Positions 6,429-45,567 of a stretch of DNA of 64,000 nucleotides are shown in pieces. Made by a program: the position numbers and the translations under genes. Position 1 is the first letter of the stretch, and every line of letters begins with the position of its first letter. Below the pieces are notes generated by a model, which saw nothing but the letters and a program-made list of their open reading frames with translations, had not been told where the DNA came from and did no database searches. Source of the DNA: Actinotalea sp. JY-7876 (GTDB taxonomy: Bacteria > Actinomycetota > Actinomycetes > Actinomycetales > Cellulomonadaceae); NCBI RefSeq assembly GCF_014042015.1, contig NZ_CP059493.1, positions 1,984,001 through 2,048,000 on the forward strand, read 5' to 3'.

Positions 6429-7645
6429 GACGCGGATGCCGGGACCAGCGGCTGGCCGATGCCCTCGAGGAGCGAGCCGAACCACGGCGCCGACACGTCG
6501 AACGCCTTGCCGCCGGCGATGCGCGGGAACGCGATGGCCTTGAGCCGGTCCCCGTCCTCCTCGTCGTGCCCGATCACGCCGGACTCGCCCCGCAGGGCGC
6601 ACTCGACGGCGTAGTCCGTCATCGACTTGATGAGGCGCAGGTCCTCGGGATTCGCCGCCGCGGCGCGCGAGTAGTAGCCGCTCTTCTGCACCATCGTCTT
6701 CTCGGCGCCGAGCAGCTCGGCGAACTGCTTCGCGAACCACTGGCCCGGGTTGATGGTGTCGAGCTTGACGTGACCGAAGGGGTCGCGCTGGACCTGCTCG
6801 CCGGCCGCCTCGAGCTGCGCCACGATCTCGTGCATGCCGGCGCCCTCGGACAGGAAGATGTTGACGTTGCCGACGGTGTCCATGACCTCGCGCAGGCGCG
6901 CGGCCTCGCCCTCGATGTCGATCGCGAGCTCGGGCAGGAAGACGGCGTGGATGTCCCAGCGCTCGCGCGACAGGCCGATGCTCGGGACCCACTCCTGGGT
7001 GTCGAGCCAGCGGCGGTACTCCGCCGCCGCCGCCGCCGTGAGCCACCCGCAGTGCCGCCCCATGACCTCGTGCACGATGAGCATGCGGTTGCCCGAGCGG
7101 TGCTCACCGATGATGTTGCGCGCGAAGCCGGCCGCCTCCTCCGCGGCCGTCCAGGCGCCCAGCGACTGCTTGATCGGCACGACGTCGTTGTCGATCGTCT
7201 TGGGCAGCCCGACGACGGTCAGCTCGTAGTCGTTCTCGTGCAGGTAGGCCGCGAGGTCCGCCGCCGTCGTGTTCGTGTCGTCCCCGCCGATCGTGTGCAG
7301 GACGTCGACGCCGTCGGCCTTGAGCTGCTCGGCCGCGACGTGCAGGGGGTCCTGGCCCTCGCGCACCAGGCCGCGCTTGACGCAGTCCTTCGCGTTGGTG
7401 AGCTTGACGCGCGAGTTGCCGATCGGGCTGCCGCCGAAGCGGTGCAGGATCCCGGCCTTGGCGCGCGCCTCGTCGTCGACGACGACCTTGGTGCCGGTGA
7501 GCAGGCCGTGGTAGCCGTGCTGGTAGGCGATCAGCTCGACGTCGGGGGCGATCTCCGTGTAGCGCTCGATGAGCCCTCCGACGGCGGAGGACAGGCACGG
7601 GGCGAAGCCGCCCGCGGTCAGCAGGGCGACACGACGAACCGACAT
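6425..7645 (-). CDS. pfp: Pyrophosphate-dependent 6-phosphofructokinase
   Basis: 406 residues. Interconverts fructose 6-phosphate and fructose 1,6-bisphosphate. Residues 120-124 read GGDDT, where the extra aspartate replaces the glycine of ATP-using enzymes, and PKTIDND lies at 148-154 with the pyrophosphate-type lysine. Both features mark PPi rather than ATP as phosphoryl donor in the PFK-A family. The reaction would be reversible. GAAGGTGAG precedes the ATG. The four-base overlap with aroG is discussed as a finding. Confidence 0.92.
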   Translation of the reverse strand: MSVRRVALLTAGGFAPCLSSAVGGLIERYTEIAPDVELIAYQHGYHGLLTGTKVVVDDEARAKAGILHRFGGSPIGNSRVKLTNAKDCVKRGLVREGQDPLHVAAEQLKADGVDVLHTIGGDDTNTTAADLAAYLHENDYELTVVGLPKTIDNDVVPIKQSLGAWTAAEEAAGFARNIIGEHRSGNRMLIVHEVMGRHCGWLTAAAAAEYRRWLDTQEWVPSIGLSRERWDIHAVFLPELAIDIEGEAARLREVMDTVGNVNIFLSEGAGMHEIVAQLEAAGEQVQRDPFGHVKLDTINPGQWFAKQFAELLGAEKTMVQKSGYYSRAAAANPEDLRLIKSMTDYAVECALRGESGVIGHDEEDGDRLKAIAFPRIAGGKAFDVSAPWFGSLLEGIGQPLVPASAS

Positions 7646-7753
7646 CTCGGACTCACCTTCTCGTTGATCTGCACAGGGCCCCCACGAGCGTGGGAGCCGA
7701 CCGGCGGCGCAGCGGCGGGCCCTCGGTCGTGGCGGTCGCCGTGGGCGACACGC

Positions 7754-8554
7754 TCATCCTACTGAGGGCGGGACCTCGTCCTGGGGCGGGACCGGAACCT
7801 GGACGTCGGGCACCGGACGCCCGCCGGGGGCGTGCGGGCGCTCGTCGGCGGGCGCGGCCTCGTCGGGGCTGTGACCGGCCGCGATGCGCGCCTTGGCGGT
7901 CGCCGCGTAGAGGTCGACGTACTCCTGGCCCGAGAGGCTCATGAGCGCGTACATGATCTCGTCCGTCACCGAGCGCAGGATGAACCTGTCGTTCTCCATG
8001 CCCTTGTACCGGCTGAAGTCGAGCGGCTCGCCGATGACGATCCCGATGCGCATCGGCTTGGGGATCACCTGCCCGATCGGCTGCGCGACGTTGGTCCCCA
8101 CCATGGCCACGGGGATGACGGGGACGCCCGCCTCCAGGGCGAGCCGGGCCACACCCGTCTTGCCGCGGTACAGGCGCCCGTCCGGGCTGCGCGTGCCCTC
8201 GGGGTAGATCCCGAAGAGGCTGCCCTCCTGCAGGATCCGCAGCCCGGTGTTGAGGGCTGCCTCACCGGCCTTGCCGCCCCCGCGGTCCACCGGCACCGTG
8301 CCGACCCCGCGGAAGAAGCCCGCCTTGAGCCGGCCCTTGATGCCGGTGCCGTTGAAGTACTCCGCCTTGGCGATGAACTGGATCTTCCGCGACAGGACGA
8401 GGGGCAGCACGAAGGAGTCGATCACCGCGAGGTGGTTGCTCGCGAGGATCGCCCCTCCGGTCTCCGGCACGTTCTCGATCCCCCGCACCCACGGACGGAA
8501 CATCCCGAGCAGGAGCGGACCGGGCGCCACGTGCTTCATCAGCCAGTAGAACAA
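7754..8554 (-). CDS. plsC: 1-acyl-sn-glycerol-3-phosphate acyltransferase (PlsC family)
   Basis: 266 residues, peripheral membrane enzyme of phospholipid synthesis, equivalent in position to Rv2182c. It has the acyltransferase block I NHxxxxD (SNHLAVIDS, about 40-48), block III YPEGTRS and a proline-rich C-terminal tail of about 40 residues. The start codon appears to be TTG at 8554, with GGAGG seven bases before it; the next option, ATG at 8539, lacks such spacing. Separate from the pfp-aroG unit by 108 bp. Confidence 0.88.
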   Translation of the reverse strand: MFYWLMKHVAPGPLLLGMFRPWVRGIENVPETGGAILASNHLAVIDSFVLPLVLSRKIQFIAKAEYFNGTGIKGRLKAGFFRGVGTVPVDRGGGKAGEAALNTGLRILQEGSLFGIYPEGTRSPDGRLYRGKTGVARLALEAGVPVIPVAMVGTNVAQPIGQVIPKPMRIGIVIGEPLDFSRYKGMENDRFILRSVTDEIMYALMSLSGQEYVDLYAATAKARIAAGHSPDEAAPADERPHAPGGRPVPDVQVPVPPQDEVPPSVG

Positions 8555-8608
8555 GCGTCACCTCCGCTGCTGCGCTCGCGCGACCCACGCGCAGCGACCC
8601 CACGACTC

Positions 8609-8614
8609 TAGAGT
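8609..8614 (+). promoter_or_regulatory. -10 element of the small membrane-protein gene
   Basis: TAGAGT plus a 7-base spacer to ATG at 8622. An in-frame GTG at 8613 falls inside this hexamer and is therefore unlikely to be the start. Confidence 0.5.
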
Positions 8615-8621
8615 GCTCAGC

Positions 8622-9242
8622 ATGGGTGGACGTCCGCACGACGCCGAAGAACCCCACGGAACGTCACCCGAACCGGGCGACGACCGGGGGGCGGACGGTC
8701 CGGTACCCACCGGCGCTGGCGCCGGCGACGGGAAGGCCGACGGCCCCGAGGGCACGGCCGGCCCGCACGAGTCCTCGGACACGGACATCGAGGCGCGCTG
8801 GGCCGAGATCGTGGCGCAGCTCGGCGACCTGGGTGCCGCCCCGCGCGACGCCGACGCCCAGGCGCCACCGGAACGCCCGCACCGCCGGTCCACCGACGCC
8901 CCGCCGGACGTCCCCGCCGACGCGCCGGAGGCGGACCGGCGCCCGCCGGACCCCTCGACACCACGCTCCTGGAGCCCCGACCCCGACGTCGAGGCGGCGG
9001 AGGAGCACTTCCAGCCGCCGGACCCCGGGCCCGTGCTCGGCGGCGACCCGCTGCTGACGATGGCCTGGGGCGCCGTCGCGGGCGTCCCGCTGCTCATGCT
9101 CGTCGCGGTCGTCGCCTGGCAGGACCTTCCCGCGCTCGTGCTGCAGGTCGCCGGCGCCGCCTTCGTCGCCGCCGTCGGCCTGCTCCTGTGGCGCATGCCG
9201 CACCGCCGGGACGACGACGACGGGCCGGGCGCCGTCGTCTGA
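8622..9242 (+). CDS. Conserved membrane protein with long disordered N terminus
   Basis: 206 residues, function unknown. Residues 1 to about 140 are rich in Pro, Asp, Glu and Gly and look disordered. Two hydrophobic helices follow (roughly 146-165 and 170-190), then a short basic and acidic tail (PHRRDDDD). Comparable two-helix proteins with acidic leaders sit next to glucokinase genes in other actinobacteria, but no activity is known to me. Divergent from plsC and convergent with the glucokinase gene. Confidence 0.7.
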   Translation: MGGRPHDAEEPHGTSPEPGDDRGADGPVPTGAGAGDGKADGPEGTAGPHESSDTDIEARWAEIVAQLGDLGAAPRDADAQAPPERPHRRSTDAPPDVPADAPEADRRPPDPSTPRSWSPDPDVEAAEEHFQPPDPGPVLGGDPLLTMAWGAVAGVPLLMLVAVVAWQDLPALVLQVAGAAFVAAVGLLLWRMPHRRDDDDGPGAVV

Positions 9243-9295
9243 GGGGCCTGGTGTCTGAGGGGGCGGTCGCCCGGGCCGGCGCGCCGGTCCCGGCG

Positions 9296-10240
9296 TCAGA
9301 GCCGGGCGAGGTCCGCGGCGCCCACGATGCCGGCGTCGTTGCCCATGGCGGCGAGCTCGATGCGCGCCTCCGGCCGGAAACCGCGTCCCGAGAGCTGGGA
9401 CAGGAAGGCCGCCCGGGCGGGCTCGAGGAGCAGGTCCCCGGCCGCGCCGACGCCTCCGCCGATCACCACGAGCGCCGGGTCCAGCAGCGCCGCGACCGAG
9501 GCCGAGCCCTCGCCGATCCAGCGGCCGAGCTCGGCCAGCAGCTCGACGGAGAGCGGGTCGCCCTCCTTGGCCGCCACGGTCACCGACGGGCCGCTGATCG
9601 CGTCCGGGCGGCCGTCGGCGAGCTCGACGAGCCGGGTCGCGCGGTCCGGGTGGGCCGACGCGGCGGCCCGGGCCTCGCGCACCAGGGCGCTGCCCGACGC
9701 GTACTGCTCCCAACAGCCGTGCAGGCCGCACCCGCACTGGTGGCCCTGCGGGACCACGCGCAGGTGACCGACCTCGGCGGCCACGCCCCACGCACCCCGC
9801 ACCAGGCGGCCGCCCACGACCAGGGCGCCGCCCAGGCCCGTGCCGACCGTGAGCAGCAGCATGTCGTCGACCTCGCGCCCGACGCCGAACTGGAACTCCG
9901 CCCAGCCCGCGGCGTTGGCGTCGTTCTCCACGACGATCCGCACGTCGTCGGCCACGAGCTCGGCGATCCGCTCGCGCAGGGGGTAGTCGCGCCAGGCGAT
10001 GTTGGCGCCGAACAGCGCCGTCGAGCGGTCCGAGCCGATGAAGCCCGCCGCCGCGACGCCCAGGGCGCTCACCTCGTAGCCGGCCGCCAGCTCGGTGTAC
10101 AGGTCGGCGACGGCGCGGTCGATCTCCGCCGCGTCACCGGCGACCGTCTTCCGCTTCGCCTTGGCGACGATCCTGCCGTCCTCGTCGACCACGCCCGCCG
10201 CGATCTTCGTGCCGCCGATGTCCACACCGATCGCGTACAT
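9296..10240 (-). CDS. glk: ROK-family glucokinase
   Basis: 314 residues. Phosphorylates glucose with ATP. DIGGTK at 7-12 is the phosphate-binding loop; ENDANAA and GTGLGG follow; the ROK zinc site appears as GH then QCGCGLHGCWEQ (His plus three Cys). No N-terminal helix-turn-helix is present, so this is an enzyme rather than a NagC-type repressor. The ATG is preceded by AAGGA. Position between a plsC-like and a fadD15-like gene resembles glkA of Streptomyces. Confidence 0.92.
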   Translation of the reverse strand: MYAIGVDIGGTKIAAGVVDEDGRIVAKAKRKTVAGDAAEIDRAVADLYTELAAGYEVSALGVAAAGFIGSDRSTALFGANIAWRDYPLRERIAELVADDVRIVVENDANAAGWAEFQFGVGREVDDMLLLTVGTGLGGALVVGGRLVRGAWGVAAEVGHLRVVPQGHQCGCGLHGCWEQYASGSALVREARAAASAHPDRATRLVELADGRPDAISGPSVTVAAKEGDPLSVELLAELGRWIGEGSASVAALLDPALVVIGGGVGAAGDLLLEPARAAFLSQLSGRGFRPEARIELAAMGNDAGIVGAADLARL

Positions 10241-12688: not shown

Positions 12689-14707
12689 ATGCACCTCGTC
12701 CCGCGCTCCACGTCCCCGTTCGCTGCCGCCGGTCCGGCCGCGGCGGTAGGGCGCGAGCAGGGCGCGGCGCCGGCCGGACCGGGCGTGCAGCTCACGCTCG
12801 ACGCCGTCGGGACGCCGCTGTCCGAGGTGACCTTCGTCGTGGTGGACCTCGAGACCACCGGCGGCACCCCGGCGACGGCGGCGATCACGGAGATCGGCGC
12901 GGTCAAGGTGCGCGGTGGGCGCGTGCTCGGCGAGTTCCAGACGCTGGTGGACCCCGGCGGCCCCGTGCCGGCCTTCATCGCGACGCTGACGGGCATCACG
13001 ACGTCGATGGTCCGCGAGGCGCCCCGCATCGGGCAGGTGCTGCCGAGCTTCCTGGAGTTCGCGCGCGGCGCCGTCCTCGTGGCGCACAACGCCGCGTTCG
13101 ACGTCGGCTTCCTCAAGGCGGCGGCCGCGGACCACGGCTACGCCTGGCCCGGCAACCAGGTCGTCGACACGGTCGCCCTCGCGCGGCGCGCCGTGACACG
13201 CGACGAGGTGCCGAACCACAAGCTCTCGACCCTCGCGGCGTACTTCCGGGCGACGGTCACGCCGGACCACCGCGCGCTGTCCGACGCCCGAGCCACCGTC
13301 GACGTGCTCCACGCGCTCCTCGGGCGCCTCGGCCCGCTCGGGATCACGCACCTCGAGGACCTCGCGACAGCGACCGACCCCGTGCCCGCCGCCCGGCGCC
13401 GCAAGCGCCACCTGGCCGACGGCCTGCCGGACGCGCCGGGCGTCTACCAGTTCCGCGACGCCCGCGGGGAGATCCTCTACGTCGGCACGGCCACGTCGCT
13501 GCGCACGCGGGTGCGCAGCTACTTCACGGCGGCGGAGCACCGGCGCCGCATGAACGAGATGGTCGCGCTGGCCGAGGAGGTGGTGCCGATCGTCTGCGGC
13601 ACCGTGCTGGAGGCGCGGGTACGCGAGCTGCGCCTCATCGCCGAGCACTCCCCGCGCTACAACCGACGCTCCCGCTTCCCCGAGCGGATGCCGTGGGTCC
13701 GGCTCACCGTGGAGCCCTACCCCCGGCTGAGCATCGTCCGCGACGTCCGGGGCGACGGCGGCCCGACCGCGGGACCCGAGGCGCACATCGGTCCGTTCGC
13801 CAGCCGCGGTGCAGCCCAGCAGGCGATCGACGCCCTGCACGCGACGTTCGCGCTGCGGCAGTGCTCCGGCCGGCTCCCCCGCGTGCCGTCGGCCGACGCC
13901 AGCCCCTGCGCCCTCGCGGGCATGGGCCGGTGCGGCGCGCCCTGCACCGGTGGCCAGGACGTCGAGGCCTACACCGCCGTCGTCGACGCGGTGCGCCACG
14001 CGATGCTCCTCGACCCCGCGCCCGTCGTCAGTGCCCACGCGACCCGCATCGCGCAGCTGACGGCCACCGAGCGGTTCGAGGAGGCCGCCGCGTGGCGCGA
14101 CCAGCTCGCCGCCTTCCTGCGGGGTGCCTCACGGGCCCAGCGCTCGCGCCGCGCGGCCGGCCACGCGCAGCTCGTCGCCGCCCGCGTCCGCGACGGCGGC
14201 GGGTGGGAGGTCGCCGTGGTCCGTCACGGCCGGCTCTCGGCGACCACCGCGACCCCGCCCGGCGCCGACCCGCGACCGCACATCGCGGCGCTCGTGGCGA
14301 CCGCCGAGCACGTCGCGCCGCCGTGCCTGCCCGCGTCCGCCGCCCACCCGGAGGAGACCGACCTGGTGCTCGACTGGCTGGAGGAGCCGGGCGTCCGCCT
14401 CGTCGAGGCCGGGGAGGGCTGGGCGTGCCCGGTACGGGGCGCCGAGGCGTTCCGCTCCCCGGCCGCGACAGCATCCGCCGTGGCCGCCGCCGTCGCCCGC
14501 CGCACGCCACCGGTGACCGCCCTCGTCCCGGCGGCCGAGGTCAGGGACACCGCAGACGAAGCGGCCTGGGAGGGCGTCGCCCGGGACGGCATGGCCCGGG
14601 ACGACACCGCCCGGGACGACGTGGACGCCCCGGTCCGGGCCGACGCGCACACCGCCGACGCCGACGCCCGCGTGCGCTCGGACGCGCAGGTCAGCGGGAC
14701 GGCATGA
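12689..14707 (+). CDS. DnaQ-like exonuclease fused to a UvrC-like GIY-YIG nuclease
   Basis: 672 residues. The N-terminal DEDDh exonuclease (about 45-220) has VVVDLETTG with the first acidic pair, a middle HNAAFD and a late HRALSDARAT. A GIY-YIG domain (about 250-330) begins PGVYQFRD and continues ILYVGTATSLRTRV. A cysteine-bearing region resembling UvrC (CSGRLP then GRCGAPC) and a UVR-like stretch follow. The last 40 or so residues are repetitive, ARDD- and ADA-rich. Same architecture as Rv2191 and likely in DNA repair, though its substrate is unknown. The start is set by the hexamer 7 bases upstream; a longer frame from 12614 would run through the promoter. Confidence 0.88.
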   Translation: MHLVPRSTSPFAAAGPAAAVGREQGAAPAGPGVQLTLDAVGTPLSEVTFVVVDLETTGGTPATAAITEIGAVKVRGGRVLGEFQTLVDPGGPVPAFIATLTGITTSMVREAPRIGQVLPSFLEFARGAVLVAHNAAFDVGFLKAAAADHGYAWPGNQVVDTVALARRAVTRDEVPNHKLSTLAAYFRATVTPDHRALSDARATVDVLHALLGRLGPLGITHLEDLATATDPVPAARRRKRHLADGLPDAPGVYQFRDARGEILYVGTATSLRTRVRSYFTAAEHRRRMNEMVALAEEVVPIVCGTVLEARVRELRLIAEHSPRYNRRSRFPERMPWVRLTVEPYPRLSIVRDVRGDGGPTAGPEAHIGPFASRGAAQQAIDALHATFALRQCSGRLPRVPSADASPCALAGMGRCGAPCTGGQDVEAYTAVVDAVRHAMLLDPAPVVSAHATRIAQLTATERFEEAAAWRDQLAAFLRGASRAQRSRRAAGHAQLVAARVRDGGGWEVAVVRHGRLSATTATPPGADPRPHIAALVATAEHVAPPCLPASAAHPEETDLVLDWLEEPGVRLVEAGEGWACPVRGAEAFRSPAATASAVAAAVARRTPPVTALVPAAEVRDTADEAAWEGVARDGMARDDTARDDVDAPVRADAHTADADARVRSDAQVSGTA

Positions 14708-34151: not shown

Positions 34152-34457
34152 ATGGACCTCACTCCTCGTGAGATCGAGAAGCTGTACGTGTACCAGGTCG
34201 CAGAGATCGGACGACGTCGTCGGGAACGCGGCACGAAGCTGAATCTCAGCGAAGCGCAGGCACTGATCTGCGAGGCGATTCTCGAAGGCGCCCGCGACGG
34301 CAAGTCCGTCGCCGAGTGCATGGAGCTCGGAAAGCACGTGGTCGCCGAGACCGACTGCATGCCCGGGGTGCGAGAGCGGCTGCCGCTGCTCCAGGTCGAA
34401 GCGACCTTCCCGGACGGCAGCAAGCTCGTCTCGTGCCACGACCCCGTGGCGGCCTGA
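34152..34457 (+). CDS. ureA: Urease gamma subunit
   Basis: 101 residues, full length. MDLTPREIEKLYVY and the EAILEGARDGKSVAE and MELGKHVV segments are characteristic. Part of the trimeric UreABC unit that splits urea to ammonia and carbamate. GGAAGG stands 9 bases before the ATG. The next gene is not ureB but a chelatase-like gene starting 3 bp after the stop. Confidence 0.97.
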   Translation: MDLTPREIEKLYVYQVAEIGRRRRERGTKLNLSEAQALICEAILEGARDGKSVAECMELGKHVVAETDCMPGVRERLPLLQVEATFPDGSKLVSCHDPVAA

Positions 34458-34460
34458 GAG

Positions 34461-35324
34461 ATGTCGCTGGCCGACGAGGCCACCCGGCTGCTGCTCGTCG
34501 CAGGCCACGAGAGCGACGGCGGGATCGGCCTCGAGCCGCTCCTCGACGCCCTGCCCGGCGCGGTGGTCGCGACCGCCGGGCGACGCCTGCACGACGCCGT
34601 CACCCGCGCCCTGACCGAGGGTGCGGAGCGCGTCGCCGTGCTGCCGATGACGTGGGGCCGCGACCCGGTGATGGTGGCCGACGCGGCGAAGACGCTGCGC
34701 TGGCTGGACGCCGGAGCCGGTCGCGGACGCCTCGCGCTGTGCGACGACTTCGGCACGATCGACCACCTGGTCGCCGCGCTGCGGCGTGCGGCGACCCGCA
34801 CCGCCGCGGCGGAGCCGGGCGCCGCGATGGTGGTCGTCGCACGCGCCGCCGACCCCTTCGACGACGCCGAGCTGTACCGCGTGGCCCACCTGGTGCGCAC
34901 GCACGGCGCCGGGGTCCCGGTCGAGGTGGCGTGCGTGGCCGGCCCGGGTGACCTGGCCGACGTCGTGCACCGCACGCGACTGCTGGGCGCCCGCGGCGTG
35001 GTGCTCGTTCCGGCAGGGTTCGGACTGCCGGACGGCGTCGACGGGTTCGCCGGGACCACGTCCTACGGACCTCTCGTCTCGCGCGCGGCCGTCCTGGAGG
35101 TCGTCCGCCGCCGGCGCGACGCCGCACTGCACGCGCTGGAGCACGGGCGGACCGGCATCGAGGCCGGCCTGCTCGCCGACCACGGCCACGGCTACGCCCA
35201 CTCCCACGGGATCGACGGCGATGCCGGGCACGGCCACCCGCACGGGCACGGCCACCCGCACGAGCACCCGCACGGCACCGTGCCGGCCGGGTTCGAGCTG
35301 GCGGAGAGCCGGCCGAGCGGCTGA
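34461..35324 (+). CDS. CbiX-type chelatase-fold protein with His-rich tail, in urease operon
   Basis: 287 residues. Two CbiX/SirB-like half domains (about 8-110 and 121-225). The N-terminal metal-site histidine is kept ([10 protein letters not shown]16). The second one, expected in a PxFLxxGxH motif, is not evident; that place reads P62-MTWGRD. The second half has the [17 protein letters not shown] stretch seen in two-domain chelatases. Residues 241-271 form a tail with 12 histidines in HGH, HPH and HEH pairs, like the nickel-binding tail of some UreE proteins. It lies 3 bp after ureA, and the operon has no ureE. I infer a nickel chaperone or store for urease maturation. A cobalt or siroheme role is less likely, since no tetrapyrrole genes are near. 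Confidence 0.75.
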
Positions 35325-35433: not shown

Positions 35434-35874
35434 ATGCTAGGCAGCCCGAAGTACCACCACAGCGACGATGACATCGAGATCAACGCCGGGCGACCCACGG
35501 TCACCCTGACGGTGACCAACACGGGTGACCGCGGCATCCAGGTCGGGTCCCACTTCCACTTCTTCGAGGTCAACCGCGCCCTGCGGTTCGACCGCGAGCT
35601 GGCCTACGGGATGCACCTCGACATCCCGGCCGGCACCGGCGTCCGCATCGAGCCGGGCGACTCGCGCGAGGTCACGCTGACCGCCTACGCGGGCAGCCGG
35701 CGGGTCATCGGGTTCAACAACCTCGTCGACGGCGGCCTGGACGCGCGCCAGACCCGCATCGACGCCTTCGCACGCCTGGCGGCGGGCGGCTTCCAGAACG
35801 AGCCGTCGGGGTCGTCCTCCGCCGGTGACCAGGGCGCTCCGCGCACCGACTCCGCCAAGACGAAGGACAGCTGA
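35434..35874 (+). CDS. ureB: Urease beta subunit
   Basis: 146 residues. The conserved core ([25 protein letters not shown] onward) is followed by [10 protein letters not shown] and then a 35-residue Gly/Ser/charged tail longer than in the usual 101-residue subunit. ATG 35434 is chosen because GGAGGG lies 8 bases before it; an ATG at 35398 is in frame but has no such site. The stop overlaps the ureC start as TGATG. Confidence 0.93.
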
Positions 35875-37598
35875 TGGCCATCATCTCGCGCAAGCAGTAC
35901 GTCGACCTGTTCGGCCCGACCACCGGCGACCGGGTCCACCTCGCGGACTCCAACCTCGTGATCCAGATCGAGAAGGACTACAACGAGGGCAACTACGGCG
36001 ACGAGGTCGTCTACGGCGGCGGCAAGACCGCGCGCGACGGCATGGCGGCGGACCCGCAGGTCACCAGCGCCACGGGCGGCCTGGACCTGGTCATCACGAA
36101 CGTCATCGTGCTCGACCCGATCCTCGGCGTCGTCAAGGGCGACATCGGGATCAAGGACGGCAAGATCGTCGGGATCGGCAAGTCCGGGAACCCGCACGTG
36201 CAGCGCGGGGTCGACCCGCGGCTCGTCGTGGGCGCGGTCACGGAGGTCATCGCCGGCGAGCACCTCATCGCCACGGCGGGCGGCATCGACAGCCACGTCC
36301 ACTACATCTCGCCGCAGCAGGGGCACGCGGCCCTGTCCAACGGCATCACCACCCTCTTCGGCGGGGGCACCGGCCCGACGGACGCGACGAACGGCGTGAC
36401 CACCACGCCCGGCGCCTGGCACCTGCACCGGATGCTCCAGGCGGCCGAGGACATGCCGGTCAACATGGGCTTCCACGGCAAGGGCAACGGCTCGCTGCCC
36501 GGCCCGCTCATCGAGCAGATCCGGGCGGGGGCGTCCTCGCTCAAGGTCCACGAGGACTGGGGCGCCACCCCGGCGGCCCTGGACAACGCCCTGACGGTCG
36601 CGGACGAGTTCGACGTCCAGCTCTCCGTGCACACCGACAGCCTCAACGAGTCGGGGTACGTGGAGGACACGCTGTCGGCGATCAACGGCCGGACGATCCA
36701 CACGTACCACACCGAGGGAGCGGGCGGCGGGCACGCGCCGGACATCATGAAGGCGGCCAGCCACCCCAACGTGCTGCCGTCCTCGACCAACCCGACCCTG
36801 CCGTACACGGTCAACTCGGTCGACGAGCTGCTCGACATGGTCATGGTCTGCCACCACCTGTCGCACGACATCCCGGAGGACGTCGCCTTCGCGGACTCGC
36901 GCGTGCGCGCCGAGACGATCTCCGCGGAGACCGTGCTGCACGACGAGGGCGTCCTGTCGATGTTCTCCTCGGACTCGCAGGCCATGGGGCGCATCGGGGA
37001 GTCGTTCATGCGCGCCTTCCAGACGGCGCACCACAACAAGGACAAGCGCGGGTCGCTGCCGGAGGACTCCGCGGCGAACGACAACTTCCGGGTCCTGCGC
37101 TACCTGGCGAAGATGACGATCAACCCGGCCATCACGCAGGGGGTCTCCGACTACATCGGCTCCCTCGAGGACGGCAAGATCGCCGACATCGTCCTGTGGT
37201 CGGTGAGCGGGTTCGCCGCCAAGCCCAAGATGGTCATCAAGGGCGGCCTCATCAACTGGGCGCTCATGGGCGAGCCGAACTCCTCGCTCCCCACCCCGCA
37301 GCCGGTCTTCTACCGGCCGATGTTCGGGGCGTGGGGCAAGGCGACGCAGGCGACCCGCGTGTCGTTCATGTCGCAGGCAGCCATCGACCTCGGCGTCCCC
37401 GAGCGGCTGGGCCTGGAGAGCCAGGTGCTGCCCGTGCGGCGGTGCCGCGGGATCGGCAAGGCGCACATGGTGCGCAACGACCGCACGCCCGTGATCGACG
37501 TCGACCCGGAGACCTACAAGGTCACCTACGACGGGACGCCGGCGCACATCGAACCCGCCCAGTCGCTGCCGATGACCCAGCTCTTCTTCCTGGCCTAG
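35874..37598 (+). CDS. ureC: Urease alpha (catalytic) subunit
   Basis: 574 residues with an intact dinickel site. H141 and H143 are in DSHVHYIS, the carbamylated lysine is K224 in [10 protein letters not shown]253 and H279 complete the histidine ligands, and D367 is in SSDSQAMGR. The mobile-flap pair C326-H327 is present. All positions are shifted by seven from the Klebsiella enzyme. It should be fully active once nickel is inserted by UreDFG. Confidence 0.98.
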
Positions 37599-37604
37599 GC
37601 AGCC

Positions 37605-38297
37605 ATGAGCACCGACCCGCTCGGCCTCCTGGTCAGCCTCCAGCTCTCGGACTCCGCGTTCCCGAGCGGCTTCTACACGATGTCGCACGGGCTCGAGGGG
37701 TTCAGCCAGGCGAAGCTGGTCAGCCAGGGCGGTGTCGGTGCCCTGCTGGAGGACCTGCTGGTCCACTCTGTGGGGCCCGGCGACGCGACGGCCCTGGCAC
37801 GCGCCCACGACGCCGCGGCCGCCGGCGACTGGGAGGGCGTGCGGGTGGTCGACCGGACGCTCTACGCGTCGAAGCTCAACGGCGAGATGCGCCGCGCATC
37901 GGTGCGCAGCGGGCACCAGCTCACCGACGTCGCACGGGAGGCGCTCGGCGGGCCGGAGCTGGACGAGTGGGCCCGGGGGCTCGCGGCCAAGGAGTCCCCG
38001 GGCTGCCAGCCCGTCGCCACGGCCGTCGCGTACGCGGCGGCCGGGGTGGGGGCCGAGCAGGCGGTCGTGTGCGACATGTCGGCGTTCGCCGTGAGCTTCC
38101 TCGGCGCCGCGCTGCGCCTGCGCCTGGCCGACCACCGGCAGGTCCAGGTGATGCTCCACGCCGTCGGACCGGTGATCGCGGCGCAGGCCGCCGCCGCGGT
38201 CGACCGGCCGCTGGAGGACCTCGGCGGGTGCGTCCCGATGGCCGACGTCATGTCCGCCCAGCACGAGCGCGCCGACGCCCGGCTCTTCGCGAGCTGA
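37605..38297 (+). CDS. ureF: Urease accessory protein UreF
   Basis: 230 residues, all-helical. LQLSDSAFPSGFYTMSHGLE is the conserved opening; the C-terminal part carries the LEDLGGCVPMADV region. UreF acts in the UreD-UreF-UreG complex, gating GTP hydrolysis and nickel transfer. It begins 6 bp after ureC. In many operons ureE lies between ureC and ureF; here nothing does. Confidence 0.93.
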   Translation: MSTDPLGLLVSLQLSDSAFPSGFYTMSHGLEGFSQAKLVSQGGVGALLEDLLVHSVGPGDATALARAHDAAAAGDWEGVRVVDRTLYASKLNGEMRRASVRSGHQLTDVAREALGGPELDEWARGLAAKESPGCQPVATAVAYAAAGVGAEQAVVCDMSAFAVSFLGAALRLRLADHRQVQVMLHAVGPVIAAQAAAAVDRPLEDLGGCVPMADVMSAQHERADARLFAS

Positions 38298-38336: not shown

Positions 38337-38969
38337 ATGAGCGAGAACGTGCTGAGGATCGGGATCGGCGGCCCCGTCGGCTCCGGCAAGACGGCGCTGG
38401 CCGAGGCGCTGGTCCCCCGGCTCCTGGCCGCCGGGCGGCAACCGGCGGTCATCACCAACGACATCTACACCCAGGAGGACGCGCAGCACGTGCGGCGTGA
38501 GCTCGCGGGGGTCCTCGACCCGGCCCGCGTGGTGGGCGTGGAGACCGGCGCGTGCCCGCACACCGCTGTCCGGGACGACCCGACGATGAACCTCGCGGCC
38601 GGCGCCGAGATGCTGGAGCGGTTCCCGGACGTCGACACGCTCCTCTACGAGTCCGGTGGCGACAACCTGACCCTGACCTTCTCCCCCGCCCTCGCGGACG
38701 TCTTCGTCTTCGTGCTGGACACCTCGGAGGGCGAGAAGATGCCGCGCAAGCGTGGCCCCGGCATCACCGACTCGGACATCCTGGTGATCAACAAGGTCGA
38801 CATCGCGCAGTACGTCCGCACGAACCTCGACGTCATGGAGTCCGACGCCCTGCGCGTGCGCAGCGGCAAGCCGGTGGTGCTCACCAACGCACTGACGGGC
38901 GACGGCCTCGAGCGGCTCCAGGACGAGATCATGGCGGTCTGGCACGGCCGCAGGTCCGCGCTGGTCTGA
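38337..38969 (+). CDS. ureG: Urease accessory GTPase UreG
   Basis: 210 residues. P-loop GPVGSGKT at 12-19; nickel-binding C73-P-H75 motif in ETGACPHTA; ESGGDNLT and INKVD (guanine specificity) present. The N terminus is short and has no His-rich stretch, so extra nickel storage is not in this protein. AAGGAGA lies 5 bases before the ATG. Powers nickel delivery to UreC. Confidence 0.96.
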   Translation: MSENVLRIGIGGPVGSGKTALAEALVPRLLAAGRQPAVITNDIYTQEDAQHVRRELAGVLDPARVVGVETGACPHTAVRDDPTMNLAAGAEMLERFPDVDTLLYESGGDNLTLTFSPALADVFVFVLDTSEGEKMPRKRGPGITDSDILVINKVDIAQYVRTNLDVMESDALRVRSGKPVVLTNALTGDGLERLQDEIMAVWHGRRSALV

Positions 38970-39982
38970 TGGCCACCGAGACGCTGGTGCCGGCCCCGCC
39001 CGCCGTGCCCGCCCCGCCGGCCCAGGCCCCCGTGCGCCCGTACGGCGGGCACCGGGTCCAGCCGGGGCACTACGAGCCCCGGCGGGTGCCGCCGGAGGTC
39101 GCGCGGTACGCCGGCGTGCTCGACACGCTGGCCGTCGGGAGCCCCGGCAAGGTCGGCGTGCTGCAGCTGGGGTTCGCGCTGGGCGCCCACGGGACGGAGC
39201 TGGTGGAGCACTACCAGAAGTCGCCGCTGCAGATCATGCACCCGCTCTACTACGACCCGCAGCGGCCGGACATGCCCTACACCTACCTGATGTCGACCGG
39301 TGCGGGGATCCTCCAGGGCGACCGCCTGCGGACCGACCTCACCTTCGGCGCGGGCACGTCCGCGCACGTCACGACGTCGGCCTACACCAAGGTGCTCAAG
39401 ATGGAGCACGACTACGCCGTGGCCCAGGTGAACCTCGACGTGGGGCCCGACGCCTACGTCGAGTACCTGCCGGACCCGGCCATCCTGTTCACCGACGCCA
39501 GGCTCTACCAGCGCACAGCCGTGACGGTGGCGGAGTCGGCGACGCTCCTCGCCGGGGAGACCGTCGTCGCGGGGCGGCTGGGCCGCGGCGAGCGCCACCG
39601 GTACACCGTCCTGGCGTCGGACTTCGAGGCCCGTCGGCCGGACGGCACCCTCCTCGCGCTCGACCGCGTCCGCCTGGCCCCGGTCGCCGGCGCGTCGGGC
39701 GGGCCCGCGGTCATGGGCGGCCACGACGTGCTCTCGATGCTCTACGTGCTCACCCGCCGGGCGCCGGCCGCGGAGCTGAGCGACCTTCTGCACGACGAGC
39801 TCGCCGCGACGTTCGCCGGCGCGCTGCGCCTCGGGGTCAGCACGCTGCCCGACGACTCCGGGGTCTGGGTGCGGATGCTCGGGGACGAGACCAGGACGGT
39901 CACTCTCGCGGCGACCGCCGCCTGGCGCGCCCTGCGCCTGCACCTCACCGGGCTGCCTGCGCCCACGGTCCGCAAGACCTGA
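38969..39982 (+). CDS. ureD: Urease accessory protein UreD (UreH)
   Basis: 337 residues. A 35-residue proline-rich leader precedes the conserved core, with the family motif LMSTGAGILQGDRL (about 109-122) and TTSAYTKVLKM, as in UreD scaffolds that dock on urease and provide the nickel tunnel. The start overlaps the ureG stop as TGATG. The frame continues to a stop at 39982 in a single block. Confidence 0.92.
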   Translation: MATETLVPAPPAVPAPPAQAPVRPYGGHRVQPGHYEPRRVPPEVARYAGVLDTLAVGSPGKVGVLQLGFALGAHGTELVEHYQKSPLQIMHPLYYDPQRPDMPYTYLMSTGAGILQGDRLRTDLTFGAGTSAHVTTSAYTKVLKMEHDYAVAQVNLDVGPDAYVEYLPDPAILFTDARLYQRTAVTVAESATLLAGETVVAGRLGRGERHRYTVLASDFEARRPDGTLLALDRVRLAPVAGASGGPAVMGGHDVLSMLYVLTRRAPAAELSDLLHDELAATFAGALRLGVSTLPDDSGVWVRMLGDETRTVTLAATAAWRALRLHLTGLPAPTVRKT

Positions 39983-40019: not shown

Positions 40020-40955
40020 ATGGCATCGACAGGAGCAACGGCGCAAGCGCCCGGTACCGGCACCGCACTGACCGGGCGGGCCTTCGCCCACGGACTGTCC
40101 CAGATCTTCTTCCAGGCGAACGTCTGGACGGGTCTGCTCATCCTGGCGGCGTTCGTCGTCGCCGACGTGCGCATGGCCGTCCTCGTGGTGATCGGCACCC
40201 TGGTCTCGACCGCGACGGGTGCGCTCATGGGCGCGCGCCGGCAGGACCTGCGGATCGGCATGCAGGGCTACAACGGGGCCCTGCTCGGCGCCGCGGTCTT
40301 CGCCGCGATGGGCGGCGCGCAGGCGTGGTCGTACGTGGCCACGGTGGTCGGCGCCGTCCTCTGCGCGCCGGTGATGTGGCTCTTCGTGCGGCTCTTCGCC
40401 ACGAGGCCGCTCGCGCGGTTCGACCTGCCGGCGACGACGGCACCGTTCTGCACGGTCGCGGGCGTGGTCTACGCCGTCACCATGAGCCTGCACGTGAGCT
40501 CGACGCCCCAGCACGTCCCGGACGAGGTCGGCCGGTCCTTCCTGCGGTCGCTGCTCACGAACGTCTCCGAGGTCGTGCTCGTCGAGAGCGTCTGGGCCGG
40601 GGCGCTCATCCTGCTCGGCCTCTTCATCGCCTCGTGGCGGGTCGGGGTGGCGGCGGTCCTCGGCAGCGTCGTCGGAAGCCTGTGCGCGCTCGCCCTGGGC
40701 GAGAGCAGCGAGACGATCGGGAGCGGCCTGGCGAACTACTCCGGCGTCCTGACCGCCATCGCGCTCGCCGTCGTCTTCCTGCGCAGCACCGTGGCGGCGT
40801 GGCTCTACGCGACCCTGGGCGCGGCGCTGACCGCCGTCCTGACCCTGCTCCTCACCGACGCCACGAGCGCACCGCACTACACGTGGCCCTACATCCTGAC
40901 CACCTGGGTCCTGCTGGTCGTCGCGGCCTTCGTGCCGGCGCTGCGCCGCACATGA
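40020..40955 (+). CDS. Urea transporter (UT family)
   Basis: 311 residues, about ten helices. Two inverted halves are visible: MQGYNGALLGAA in the first and GSGLANYSGVLTAIA in the second, with the urea-slot motif LPATTAPF. Forms a urea channel at the membrane and feeds the urease encoded just upstream. GGAGGA lies 5 bases before the ATG. 37 bp after ureD, so probably the last gene of the operon. Confidence 0.92.
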   Translation: MASTGATAQAPGTGTALTGRAFAHGLSQIFFQANVWTGLLILAAFVVADVRMAVLVVIGTLVSTATGALMGARRQDLRIGMQGYNGALLGAAVFAAMGGAQAWSYVATVVGAVLCAPVMWLFVRLFATRPLARFDLPATTAPFCTVAGVVYAVTMSLHVSSTPQHVPDEVGRSFLRSLLTNVSEVVLVESVWAGALILLGLFIASWRVGVAAVLGSVVGSLCALALGESSETIGSGLANYSGVLTAIALAVVFLRSTVAAWLYATLGAALTAVLTLLLTDATSAPHYTWPYILTTWVLLVVAAFVPALRRT

Positions 40956-40998: not shown

Positions 40999-41811
40999 GT
41001 GCAGATCACGATGAGCGACGTGCACGTGCGCGGCCGCCGCGCCGTGATGCTGGAGCTCGGCGGCCTGACCCTCACCACGGGCCAGGCCGTCCTCCTGGCG
41101 GGCGAGCCGGGGCAGGGCCTGACGGCGCTGGCCCTCGCCGCGACCGGGCGCCTGTCCCCCTTCGACGGCACCGTGACCCTCGTCGACGACGACGGCGCGA
41201 CGACCACCGACCCGGCCGAGCTGCGCCGGGTCACGGCGGTGGTCGACCTCCCCGGCGTCTCCGAGCCGGACGACGCCGTCCCGCTCGGCACGGTGGTCGC
41301 GGAGGACCTCGCGCTCGCCCGCGTGCCCGCGGGGCCCGGGGCCACCCGGCGCTGGCTCGCCGAGCACGACCTGAGCGACCGTGCCGGCCTGCGCGTCGAC
41401 GACATCCCCGGCGACCTGCGCACCGAGCTCCTCGCGACGCTGGCCGCCGAGCGGCCCGATGTCAGGTTCCTCGTGCTGACCATGCCCGAGCGCCACGGCG
41501 GCGAGCCGGCGCGGTGGTGGCAGCTCGCCCAGGAGCTCGCCGCGCTCGGCTACGGCGTCCTGGTGCAGTGCAGCCGCTCCTGCGCGCGGGACCTGGGCGC
41601 TGACGTGCCCCCGGCCCGGAGCGAGGCCGACGCGCCGGCCCCCGTCGAGGCGCTGCGCACGACGCCGCCCGCCGCGCCCGCGCGACCGCGCACCGGTGCG
41701 CCCGAGAGCACGGACCCGACCCAGCTGCTCGACGCCGCCGACGAGCCGGAGCCGGCGCCGCGCCGCCGTCGACGCGCAGGGCGCGCGACGCGGGACGGAC
41801 GGGAAGGGTGA
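40999..41811 (+). CDS. ABC-ATPase-like protein with lost Walker A lysine
   Basis: 270 residues. The N-terminal 190 follow the outline of an ABC nucleotide-binding domain, including a GEPGQGLT loop at 35-42. The invariant Walker A lysine is leucine (L41), no LSGGQ signature is present, and the Walker B position reads LVLTMPE instead of LLLDEP. The protein has no lysine at all. The last 80 residues are Pro/Ala-rich and end in an Arg-rich patch. Coupled to a YhgE/Pip gene by GTGA. ATP hydrolysis looks unlikely; a structural partner of the membrane protein is inferred. Confidence 0.7.
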   Translation: MQITMSDVHVRGRRAVMLELGGLTLTTGQAVLLAGEPGQGLTALALAATGRLSPFDGTVTLVDDDGATTTDPAELRRVTAVVDLPGVSEPDDAVPLGTVVAEDLALARVPAGPGATRRWLAEHDLSDRAGLRVDDIPGDLRTELLATLAAERPDVRFLVLTMPERHGGEPARWWQLAQELAALGYGVLVQCSRSCARDLGADVPPARSEADAPAPVEALRTTPPAAPARPRTGAPESTDPTQLLDAADEPEPAPRRRRRAGRATRDGREG

Positions 41812-43901
41812 CCGCCGTCCACCTGGCGATGTCGGAGCTCCGCCGCGTGTGGGCGGGGACGCTGCCACGCCTGGCCGTGCTGGCGATGATGATCATCCCC
41901 TCGCTCTACTCCGGCCTGTACCTCTTCGCCAACGAGGACCCCTACGGTCGTCTCGAGACGGTGCCGGCGGCGCTCGTCGTCCTGGACCGCGGCGCCACCA
42001 GCGAGAACGCGACCGACGGCACCTCGCGCGAGGTCGACTACGGCGAGCGCGTCGCCTCGCGCCTGCTCGACGGCGACGGCGGCTTCGGGTGGGTGCGGAC
42101 CTCGCAGTCCGACGCGGAGGCCGGCGTCCGGTCGGGCCGCTTCGACTCCGCCCTGATCATCGGCCCCACGTTCTCGCAGGACCTCGTCTCGTCGGCGCGC
42201 TTCCAGCCGCAGCAGGCGAGCCTGACCCTCCTGACCAACGACGCCAACAACTACCTCGCGACGACGATCGCGGACACGATCGTGGGCAAGGTCCGGGACT
42301 CCATCGCGGAGGAGGTCGGCACCGAGGCCGCCGACACCTTCCTGCGGGGCTTCGCCTCGATCCACACCAACCTCTCGAGCGCCGTGCAGGGCGCGCAGGA
42401 GCTCGAGTCGGGCGCCGCCCGCCTGTCCCAGGGCACGGTGGAGCTCGTCACGGGCACGGCCGAGCTCGCGACGGGCGCGCAGCAGACCGCGAGCGGCGCC
42501 GCGGAGCTGGCGGCCGGCGCCGACCGGCTCGCCGCGGGCGCGAGCACGCTGGCGTCGGGCGCGGGCACGCTGGCGGACGGGCTGGCGACGCTGCGCAGCC
42601 GGACCGCGGACCTCCCGGCCCAGACGGCCGCGCTCGCCGTCGGCGCCGGCGAGGTCGCGGGCGGTGCGGCCGAGGCGGCGCACGTCGGCCGAGAGGCGGT
42701 CACGACCACGCGCGAGGCCGTCGCCGCGCTCGACACGGCCCGCACGGACCTCGAGGCGGCGCTGGGGCCGCTCGTGGCCGAGGGGCGCCTGACCGAGGCG
42801 GAGGCGGCCGAGATCCGGGCGCTCCTCGAGGACTCCCGGGCGCCCGTGGCCTCGCTCGTGACGCAGGTCGAGGACGCCTCCGGCCGGCTGGACGAGCTGA
42901 GCGACGGCGCGGCCCAGGTCGCCACCGGCGCGCGCGAGCTCGCGGACGCGAGCCCGGCCCTCACGCAGGGCATCGCCACCGCGGCACAGGGAGGCCAGGA
43001 GGTGGCGGCGGGCGCGGCCGAGGTGAGCTCCGGGGCGGCCACCCTCGCGAGAGACCTGTGCACGCTGGCCGCCGGCACGACCCAGGTCTCGGACGGCGCC
43101 GCGCGGCTCGCGTCGTCGAGCGTGACGCTGCGCGACGGCACGTCCGAGCTCGGCTCCGGCGTCACGCAGCTGCGCGAGGGTCTGCAGCAGGGGCTCACCC
43201 GCATCCCGGACCTGGACCCTGACACCGAGCGCGAGACGGCGCGCACGATCGGCAACCCCGTCGAGGTGGTCAGCGACACGATGGCGCGGGCGGGCACCTA
43301 CGGCGCGGGGCTCGCACCGTTCTTCATGTCGCTGGCCACGTGGATCGGCGCCTACATGCTGTTCCTCCTCGTGCGCGGGCTGTCGTCGCGCGCGCTCTCC
43401 GCCGGCGCACCCGCGGCGTGGGCCGCGCTGGGCGGCTGGATCCCGCCGGCGCTGATCGGCGTCGGGCAGGTCGTGGTGATGTTCTCCCTGGTCGCGTTCG
43501 CGCTCGACATCCGACCCGTCCACCCGATCGGCACGCTCCTGCTGCTCCTGCTCGCCTCGGCGACCTTCGTCGCGGTGCTCCAGGCGCTGAACGTGTGGCT
43601 CGGAACCGTGGGACAGTTCCTCGGCCTCGTCCTCATGCTCGTCCAGCTGGTCACGGCCGGCGGGACGTTCCCCTGGCAGACCATCCCGGAGCCCCTGCGC
43701 TCGCTGCACCGGGTGTTGCCGATGTCGTACACGGTCGAAGGGCTGCGGCAGACGCTCTACGGCGGCGACCTGGGGACGGTCGCGCGGGACGTGGCCGTGC
43801 TCGTCGCGGTCCTCGTCGTGGCGCTGGGCGCGACGACGTACGCGGCCTACCGGCAGCGGGTGTGGAGCCCGGCGCGGCTCCAGCCGGAGCTCGTCCTGTA
43901 G
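41808..43901 (+). CDS. YhgE/Pip-family membrane protein
   Basis: 697 residues. A first helix (IIPSLYSGLYLF region) leads to a large extracellular part, and five helices follow near the C terminus (about 500-690). The extracellular middle (about 195-460) is a long run of 7-residue-like repeats of the type GAxxLAxGAxxL, probably a coiled coil. Family members serve as phage-infection or export-related proteins, with ABC-2-like C-terminal domains. Translation starts inside the stop of the ABC-like gene. Confidence 0.82.
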   Translation: MTAVHLAMSELRRVWAGTLPRLAVLAMMIIPSLYSGLYLFANEDPYGRLETVPAALVVLDRGATSENATDGTSREVDYGERVASRLLDGDGGFGWVRTSQSDAEAGVRSGRFDSALIIGPTFSQDLVSSARFQPQQASLTLLTNDANNYLATTIADTIVGKVRDSIAEEVGTEAADTFLRGFASIHTNLSSAVQGAQELESGAARLSQGTVELVTGTAELATGAQQTASGAAELAAGADRLAAGASTLASGAGTLADGLATLRSRTADLPAQTAALAVGAGEVAGGAAEAAHVGREAVTTTREAVAALDTARTDLEAALGPLVAEGRLTEAEAAEIRALLEDSRAPVASLVTQVEDASGRLDELSDGAAQVATGARELADASPALTQGIATAAQGGQEVAAGAAEVSSGAATLARDLCTLAAGTTQVSDGAARLASSSVTLRDGTSELGSGVTQLREGLQQGLTRIPDLDPDTERETARTIGNPVEVVSDTMARAGTYGAGLAPFFMSLATWIGAYMLFLLVRGLSSRALSAGAPAAWAALGGWIPPALIGVGQVVVMFSLVAFALDIRPVHPIGTLLLLLLASATFVAVLQALNVWLGTVGQFLGLVLMLVQLVTAGGTFPWQTIPEPLRSLHRVLPMSYTVEGLRQTLYGGDLGTVARDVAVLVAVLVVALGATTYAAYRQRVWSPARLQPELVL

Positions 43902-44749: not shown

Positions 44750-45127
44750 CTAGGCCTGGGCGCCCCAGCGGTACCCGAGGTAGGCGAGCGCGACGCAGAC
44801 CACGAGGACGCCCACCCCGTAGGCGAACGCGGTCCCGTAGCGCCGCTCCCGGATGAGCTGCACCGCCTCGTAGCTCGCGGTGCTGAACGTCGTGTAGCCC
44901 CCGAGGAAGCCGGTCCCGATCACCGCGCTCATCTCGGTGGACGCGATCCGGCTCACGACCAGCCCGGTCAGCGCCCCGAGCACGAGCGACCCCGTCATGT
45001 TGATGATCGCGGTCGGCCACGGGAACGCCGAGGTGGTCCGCGCCCGGATGGCGGCGTCGACCACGTAGCGCACGCCGGCGCCCAGGCCCCCGGCGAGGAC
45101 CAGCAGGACGAACGCGCCCGCGGTCAC
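44750..45127 (-). CDS. crcB: Fluoride ion channel FluC (second copy)
   Basis: 125 residues, four helices. GAGVRYVVD in helix 1, INMTGS in helix 2 and GTGFLGGYTTFST with the FluC phenylalanine box in helix 3. Exports fluoride as a dimer. Together with the upstream copy it probably makes an antiparallel heterodimer. Starts in the stop of its partner (GTGA). Confidence 0.92.
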   Translation of the reverse strand: MTAGAFVLLVLAGGLGAGVRYVVDAAIRARTTSAFPWPTAIINMTGSLVLGALTGLVVSRIASTEMSAVIGTGFLGGYTTFSTASYEAVQLIRERRYGTAFAYGVGVLVVCVALAYLGYRWGAQA

Positions 45128-45567
45128 GCGACACCCTCCCCGGTCCGGGTCGGCCCGCGCAGGCGGGCGCCCAGGGCGATGCCCGCGAACGTCGCCGCGG
45201 CCCCCAGGAGCACGGTGCCCAGGACGTACGCCGCGCCGAGGTCGAGGCGCGAGCGGTCGAGGAGCACCGCGGTGTCCGTGGCGAGCGAGCTGTACGTCGT
45301 CAGGCCGCCGCAGAACCCGGTGCCCAGGAGCAGCTTGAGCCGACTGACGACCGCCTCCCCCGGCGCGCGTCGCGCGAGGCCCTCGTACAGGAACCCCAGG
45401 AGGAACGCGCCCACGACGTTGACGAGCGTGATGACGACCGGGACCCCGTCGACGTCGGGCACGGCGAGGGACAGCCCCTCGCGGGCGGCGACGCCGAAGA
45501 ACCCGCCCAGCACGACCAGGCCGAACGACGCCGCACTGATCCGGGCGCGGCCCGGGGCGGCGTTCAC
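45124..45567 (-). CDS. crcB: Fluoride ion channel FluC (first copy)
   Basis: 147 residues, four helices. VARREGLSL-type helix 1, LVNVVGAFLLGF in helix 2 and GTGFCGGLTTYSSL in helix 3, where the usual phenylalanine-serine pair is tyrosine-serine. The differences from the second copy are the divergence expected of a heteromeric pair. GTG 45567 overlaps the stop of a 38-codon upstream frame. Confidence 0.9.
   Translation of the reverse strand: MNAAPGRARISAASFGLVVLGGFFGVAAREGLSLAVPDVDGVPVVITLVNVVGAFLLGFLYEGLARRAPGEAVVSRLKLLLGTGFCGGLTTYSSLATDTAVLLDRSRLDLGAAYVLGTVLLGAAATFAGIALGARLRGPTRTGEGVA

Follow-up and report, generated by a model that had tools for sequence, protein, structure and literature searches.

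The window analyzed here, a 64,000-nucleotide stretch of the Actinotalea sp. JY-7876 genome (contig NZ_CP059493.1, positions 1,984,001 to 2,048,000), contains a urease operon on the forward strand whose order, as determined by Pfam matches, is ureA, a CbiX-like gene, ureB, ureC, ureF, ureG, ureD, and a urea transporter gene. The operon opens with the gamma subunit gene ureA (positions 34152 to 34457; Pfam Urease_gamma, 132 bits), whose stop at 34457 is followed 3 bp later by the ATG start of the CbiX-like gene (34461 to 35324). The latter codes for a His-tailed protein of 287 aa with a total of 20 histidines and 2 cysteines, 12 of the histidines being packed into residues 241 to 271 (35181 to 35273). 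Downstream lie the genes for the beta subunit UreB (35434 to 35874; Pfam Urease_beta, 143 bits) and the alpha subunit UreC (35874 to 37598; identified by Pfam and by its place in a UreC tree), followed by those for the accessory proteins UreF (37605 to 38297; Pfam UreF, 106 bits), UreG (38337 to 38969; Pfam cobW/HypB/UreG), and UreD (38969 to 39982; Pfam UreD, 167 bits) and for the transporter (40020 to 40955; Pfam UT, 218 bits). The UreG protein lacks a terminal His stretch, with one histidine in its tail and none at its N terminus. An earlier note, made from the letters of this stretch, had placed the gene 3 bp after ureA and ahead of ureB and had counted 12 histidines near its end; the open reading frame coordinates, the Pfam neighbors, and the residue count all agree with it. 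Pfam revealed no corrinoid-pathway neighbors in the operon of the window or in the homologous loci and no UreE_N or UreE_C domain in the CbiX-like protein, which also has no match over the cut-off in NCBIfam.

Pfam CbiX matches the protein at 20.9 bits, just under the cut-off of 22, and 13 of 27 family members reach an E value of 0.1 or lower. We compared a profile of 27 sequences of the CbiX-like urease family (A1) with a profile of 17 CbiX/SirB proteins whose genomes contain a CbiX-like urease gene as well (A2; chosen from 25 translated loci by setting aside near copies, cut or fused sequences, and the urease-linked gene). Using hhalign, the two matched with a probability of 95.9% and an E value of 5.6e-9 over 195 columns spanning both lobes, and removal of the tail left the E value at 7.5e-9. 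Among the controls, reversed A2 gave 0.04, five column shuffles gave 0.09 to 0.8, and profiles of UreG, UreF, UreD, and the urea transporter gave 0.09 to 0.55. The two CbiX/SirB-like halves perceived in the earlier note are thus recovered well clear of the decoys. By this profile comparison, the protein is a remote two-lobed relative of the CbiX/SirB class II chelatases and is predicted to adopt their two-lobed fold. A sequence search of solved structures returned five weak matches, of which the best was a designed TIM barrel and none was a chelatase.

In Bacillus subtilis SirB, the metal site is described as consisting of His10, Glu43, and His76 (PMC11301274). The first metal-site histidine of CbiX/SirB corresponds to H16 of the window protein (codon at 34506 to 34508), which falls outside the local hhalign match and was placed by its GHES motif; it is a histidine in 36 of 38 homologues. 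The second, which is invariant in A2, aligns through an ungapped stretch around P62 with residue 70 (V70; codon at 34668 to 34670), and this position is occupied by T (20 homologues), V (12), A (2), E (2), S (1), or R (1) and by histidine in none of the 38. The earlier observation of one conserved metal-site histidine with no clear second one holds across these homologues. A further histidine, H102, is present in 37 of 38 homologues.

The C-terminal region includes a conserved 10-residue motif (residues 240 to 249; 35178 to 35207) of the form HxHxxxHxH, after which comes a variable His tail. In the 38 homologues, H241 is conserved in 34, H243 in 36, H247 in 37, and H249 in 38, the last count including, as an alignment match within a decayed tail, the homologue from Cellulomonas iranensis (locus L018). 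The number of histidines after residue 236 ranges from 9 to 32 in 37 of 38 homologues and is 3 in L018. In all six close pairs compared, dN is lower than dS in both the core and the tail, with dN/dS ratios of about 0.18 to 0.27 in the core and 0.04 to 0.33 in the tail. A point against a role specific to nickel is that His-rich tails are also able to bind Zn, Co, or Cu.

A single scan across genome contigs retrieved 26 homologues from 11 actinobacterial genera. The gene lies between ureA and ureB in 25 of them, and ureC, ureF, ureG, and ureD follow downstream in 24 of these loci, the 25th (L024) ending with its contig inside ureC; such consistency indicates that the arrangement is not due to chance. 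The 26th homologue, from C. iranensis, belongs to a decayed urease locus, in which a ureA remnant, the gene devoid of its His motif, and then ureG occupy positions 7803 to 9597, with no space for ureB, ureC, or ureF in between. The contig ends shortly past ureG, and the draft genome has no UreC match. As read from the DNA, the UreG protein of this relic has Ser-Pro-His where that of the window has Cys-Pro-His. Additional matches come from a Streptomyces plasmid (L117) and from genome G563 (L120, cut inside ureC), both with the order urea transporter, ureA, gene, ureB, and ureC, and from a relic on an Embleya plasmid (L118), where a shortened ureA, a His-tailed copy of the gene, and then ureB lie at 6880 to 8290. 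The 14.5-kb Embleya locus has no match to ureC, ureF, ureG, or ureD, so loss of the urease does not immediately bring loss of the tail, a point against the nickel-carrier reading. Two plasmid matches carried no annotation.

The gene is rare at broader taxonomic scales: 4 of the 297 genomes searched in the order match strongly (three weak matches of 18 to 28 bits were not counted as members), as do, at an E value of 1e-10, 2 of 396 genomes of the phylum, both counts including the genome of JY-7876 itself. In the order, 86 genomes have UreC over the cut-off; the 30 loci with the highest UreC scores show no such insert between ureA and ureB, and the widest gap between the two matches was about 310 bp (L051). 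When the UreC protein of the window was used as the query, 63 of 221 genomes of the family matched, and their identities fell into two groups, one of 13 sequences at 78 to 100% (window included) and the other, with all remaining sequences, at 52 to 56%. In this sample, which was selected through UreC without regard to the gene (although at least three of the 13 genomes were already known from the homologue scan), the CbiX-like gene adjoins ureB in 13 of 13 ureases of the 78 to 100% clade. In a UreC tree of 84 rows, built by a quick method and with flags on some long branches, all 27 ureases accompanied by the gene group together in a single clade with an SH-aLRT value of 100; rows with UreE need two changes, as do rows with neither UreE nor the gene. 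L018 (no ureC), L024, and L074 (same genome as L001) were left out of this tree. Two divergent ureA-ureB-ureC loci, L115 and L116, whose UreC proteins are about 45% identical to that of the window and which have no ureG match within 11 kb, stand apart on a long branch.

The clade spans Cellulomonadaceae, Nocardioidaceae, Micrococcaceae, Microbacteriaceae, Nocardiaceae, Sanguibacteraceae, and Corynebacteriaceae. Its unity points to a single origin, and the CbiX-like gene seems to have joined the urease operon once; judged from this tree, the association of the protein with urease is that of one clade, and the genomes carrying the gene are not independent trials. None of the 18 same-genus genomes listed (G708 to G725) has a UreC match, suggesting that the species of the window may have gained the operon by transfer.

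The genome of JY-7876 is a single contig of 3.55 Mb with a completeness of 100%, and neither UreE_C nor UreE_N was found in it at an E value of 0.001. The operon had been described earlier as lacking ureE, and a ureE elsewhere in the genome had been named as evidence that would speak against the proposed role; at this threshold, the gene is missing from the entire genome. The earlier note also suggested counting how often ureE is absent beside CbiX-like urease genes, and UreE_N is missing in 26 of 26 genomes with such a gene. In the order at large, UreE_N exceeds the cut-off in only 18 of 80 urease-bearing genomes tested, and the CbiX-like gene is present in four of these 80, none with UreE. 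The 80 were taken from the 86 genomes with UreC over the cut-off, leaving out G040, G163, G185, and G194 (completeness under 90), G171 (90% complete, 4% contamination), and G295 (partial match). Since 62 of the 80 have no UreE_N over the cut-off, the missing ureE is a common state in the order and weak evidence by itself, and we rejected it as the main argument: the absence holds, but the weight originally placed on it does not. Within a single genus, Corynebacterium glutamicum yields a UreE match, serving as a control, and Corynebacterium halotolerans (L025) carries the gene and lacks UreE. HypB was rejected as the nickel donor, being over the cut-off in 2 of 27 genomes; in the genome of JY-7876, where none exceeds the cut-off, the single HypB match is UreG.

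A more informative pattern emerged from the location of the His-rich segment in each operon. According to Haas et al. (2009), genomes with ureG and without ureE, all but two, encode a UreG with a His-rich N or C terminus, and the complementarity of UreE and His-rich UreG has already been proposed there (PMC2770081). Our UreG set comprised one locus from each of 60 of the 86 genomes, L001 to L026, and the window, with L024 (contig end before ureG) and L115 and L116 (no ureG in 11 kb) left out of the count. Where both UreE and the gene are absent, 38 of 39 operons encode a UreG with at least four terminal histidines beyond the core; such a UreG occurs in none of the 16 operons with UreE and in none of the 29 with the gene. 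The one exception among the 39 is L112, whose UreG has 3 histidines; L098 (G134), in the same set, has a UreE_N match below the cut-off (E value of 9.8e-4). If only the C-terminal tail is considered, the corresponding counts are 32 of 39, 0 of 16, and 0 of 29, those for the N terminus being softer because the UreG start codons were chosen by rule. Beside the CbiX-like gene, UreG has 0 to 2 terminal histidines in all 29 rows, which represent 28 different genomes (L001 and L074 share one) and include the L018 relic as well as L006, whose UreG frame overruns the usual end and looks broken. The UreE proteins themselves bear a short FRHAEHSH-type end motif in 13 of 16 cases, and in the loci L070, L071, and L075 neither UreE nor UreG has a His-rich end. 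Taken together, these counts indicate that almost all of the operons examined retain one His-bearing carrier, be it UreE, UreG, or the CbiX-like protein, although, given the single origin of the gene, this split could partly be inheritance.

Eight of the 13 clade genomes hold a second urease of the kind with 52 to 56% UreC identity (L181 to L198), which offers a comparison with the host background held constant. In seven of the eight, the UreG of the second urease has 8 to 12 histidines in its C-terminal tail, and that of L191 has an N-terminal frame with an HDHDGHDHNH stretch; in the same eight genomes, some of which were covered by the UreE test, the UreG beside the CbiX-like gene has 0 to 2 histidines. 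The CbiX-like protein of L018, a genome without a UreC match, has lost its tail.

On the basis of these patterns, we suggest, with a probability of roughly 65%, that the CbiX-like protein serves one actinobacterial urease clade as its dedicated nickel carrier and derives from a duplicated class II chelatase of the CbiX/SirB type. It would be a repurposed chelatase, probably inactive, whose ring-metallating site has lost one of two histidines. The proposal of the earlier note that the protein replaces UreE as a nickel carrier, with the chelatase fold put to a new use, gains support from the distribution of the His segment, operon by operon, over UreE, UreG, and this protein. Under such a scheme, the tail would collect Ni2+, and the folded body would dock on UreG or on the UreD-UreF-UreG-apo-urease complex; nickel would then pass to UreG for GTP-driven insertion into urease, so that the protein would do the job of UreE or of the UreG His extension. 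It resembles UreE in its urease operon, its His-rich C terminus, and its putative carriage of nickel but differs in having no similarity to UreE_N or UreE_C and in being placed between ureA and ureB. Similarly, it recalls the His-stretch UreG in having a His-rich segment as a possible substitute for UreE (PMC2770081), with the difference that the segment is on a separate protein. More tentatively, and with somewhat less than even confidence, we propose that it represents a third class of urease nickel chaperone beside UreE and the His-tailed UreG, namely, a half-site pseudochelatase that docks on UreG and carries a four-His motif followed by a tail. In such a protein, H16 and the conserved H102 may allow the lobes to act as a gate for nickel.

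The main rival to a nickel carrier is a nickel store or buffer, which would hold or detoxify nickel for urease without docking on UreG. The variable length of the His tail suits storage, and for the similar tail of the Bacillus megaterium cobaltochelatase CbiX-L, a role as a metal store or delivery region has been proposed. That C-terminal extension combines an Fe-S center with a His-rich region and is described as unneeded for cobalt insertion (PMC7689651). CbiX-L is indeed the closest parallel, sharing with the urease-linked protein the two CbiX lobes, of which the N-terminal one contains metal-site histidine, and a C-terminal extension rich in histidine. However, CbiX-L keeps both His14 and His79, has an Fe-S center (PMC7689651), and belongs with cobalamin genes, whereas the urease-linked protein lacks the second histidine in 38 of 38 homologues and is found in a urease operon. 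The MXCXXC motif of the Fe-S center is absent in 38 of 38 homologues, which rules out identity with an Fe-S-bearing CbiX-L. We consider pure storage unlikely, as the strict place in the operon and the exchange with UreG and UreE, both of which act in insertion, speak against it, though not decisively.

Distinctly less probable is a working tetrapyrrole chelatase, inserting cobalt, nickel, or iron into sirohydrochlorin, that sits in the urease operon by happenstance. The fold family and the retention of H16 would be compatible with this, and SirB and CfbA, with which the protein shares its class II chelatase ancestry, include in CfbA an enzyme that handles nickel; these enzymes, however, use a His pair per metal site (PMC11301274), of which the urease-linked family keeps the first member only. 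The ferrochelatase HemH works with a His-Glu pair (PMC7689651), so that the loss of one histidine is no proof of inactivity. At an E value of 0.001, the genome of JY-7876 has no CbiX family match, and it is one of 10 genomes among 27 with no other CbiX/SirB match (in another, G308, the match is the urease-linked gene itself). Against this, a separate CbiX/SirB is present in the remaining 17 of the 27, indicating that the gene tracks urease and not the presence or absence of a chelatase, and the operon link is to urease only. Given these 17 genomes, we rejected a stand-in for a missing siroheme or cobalamin chelatase.

A structural part or assembly factor of urease, with metal binding as a secondary feature, would fit the place of the gene between two subunit genes and its presence in all 13 ureases that represent the clade in the family; we regard it as very improbable, since UreA, UreB, and UreC are complete without the CbiX-like protein and the conserved His motif and tail point to metal. 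The idea of a passenger gene inherited with the operon and without any role in urease, which could draw on the restriction to one clade, on an operon scattered over several families, and on the 18 listed same-genus genomes without a UreC match, has the least to commend it in view of the retention in all 13 clade ureases, the low dN/dS ratios of core and tail, and the exchange with other His carriers.

The finding bears on how nickel reaches a UreE-less urease; Haas et al. listed two genomes that have neither UreE nor a His-stretch UreG (PMC2770081). The CbiX-like family shows that a third protein, besides UreE and UreG, can bear the His-rich segment, and two putative carrier solutions coexist in eight genomes; it further suggests that a tetrapyrrole chelatase can be converted into a carrier that delivers metal to a protein. 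A His-rich urease nickel carrier is known as a function, but the CbiX-like carrier itself appears to be new: the earlier note knew of no description of this arrangement, and the open-access literature that we searched yielded none of a chelatase-like gene in a urease operon. Among the accounts found there, other alterations of the ureA-ureB junction include a ureA-ureB fusion and the arrangement of Acidihalobacter, where a cyanase gene separates ureA from ureB.

The urea transporter gene of the window is followed at 40999 to 43901 by an ABC ATPase-like open reading frame (below the Pfam cut-off) and an ABC2 membrane protein gene, and such a pair also trails the transporter in L002, L008, and L010. 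In 9 of 28 loci scanned (L004, L006, L007, L009, L013, L014, L017, L026, and L072), the operon is accompanied by an open reading frame for what is presumably, judging from a motif, a NiCoT-like nickel/cobalt permease, which favors the nickel-carrier reading; it lies at 13616 to 14809 in L004 and adjoins ureD in Arthrobacter loci. The same motif picks out no such frame in the window, a point against that reading. Farther downstream in the window, on the reverse strand at 44750 to 45567, two adjoining genes code for small membrane proteins that we take to resemble a CrcB-type fluoride channel pair.
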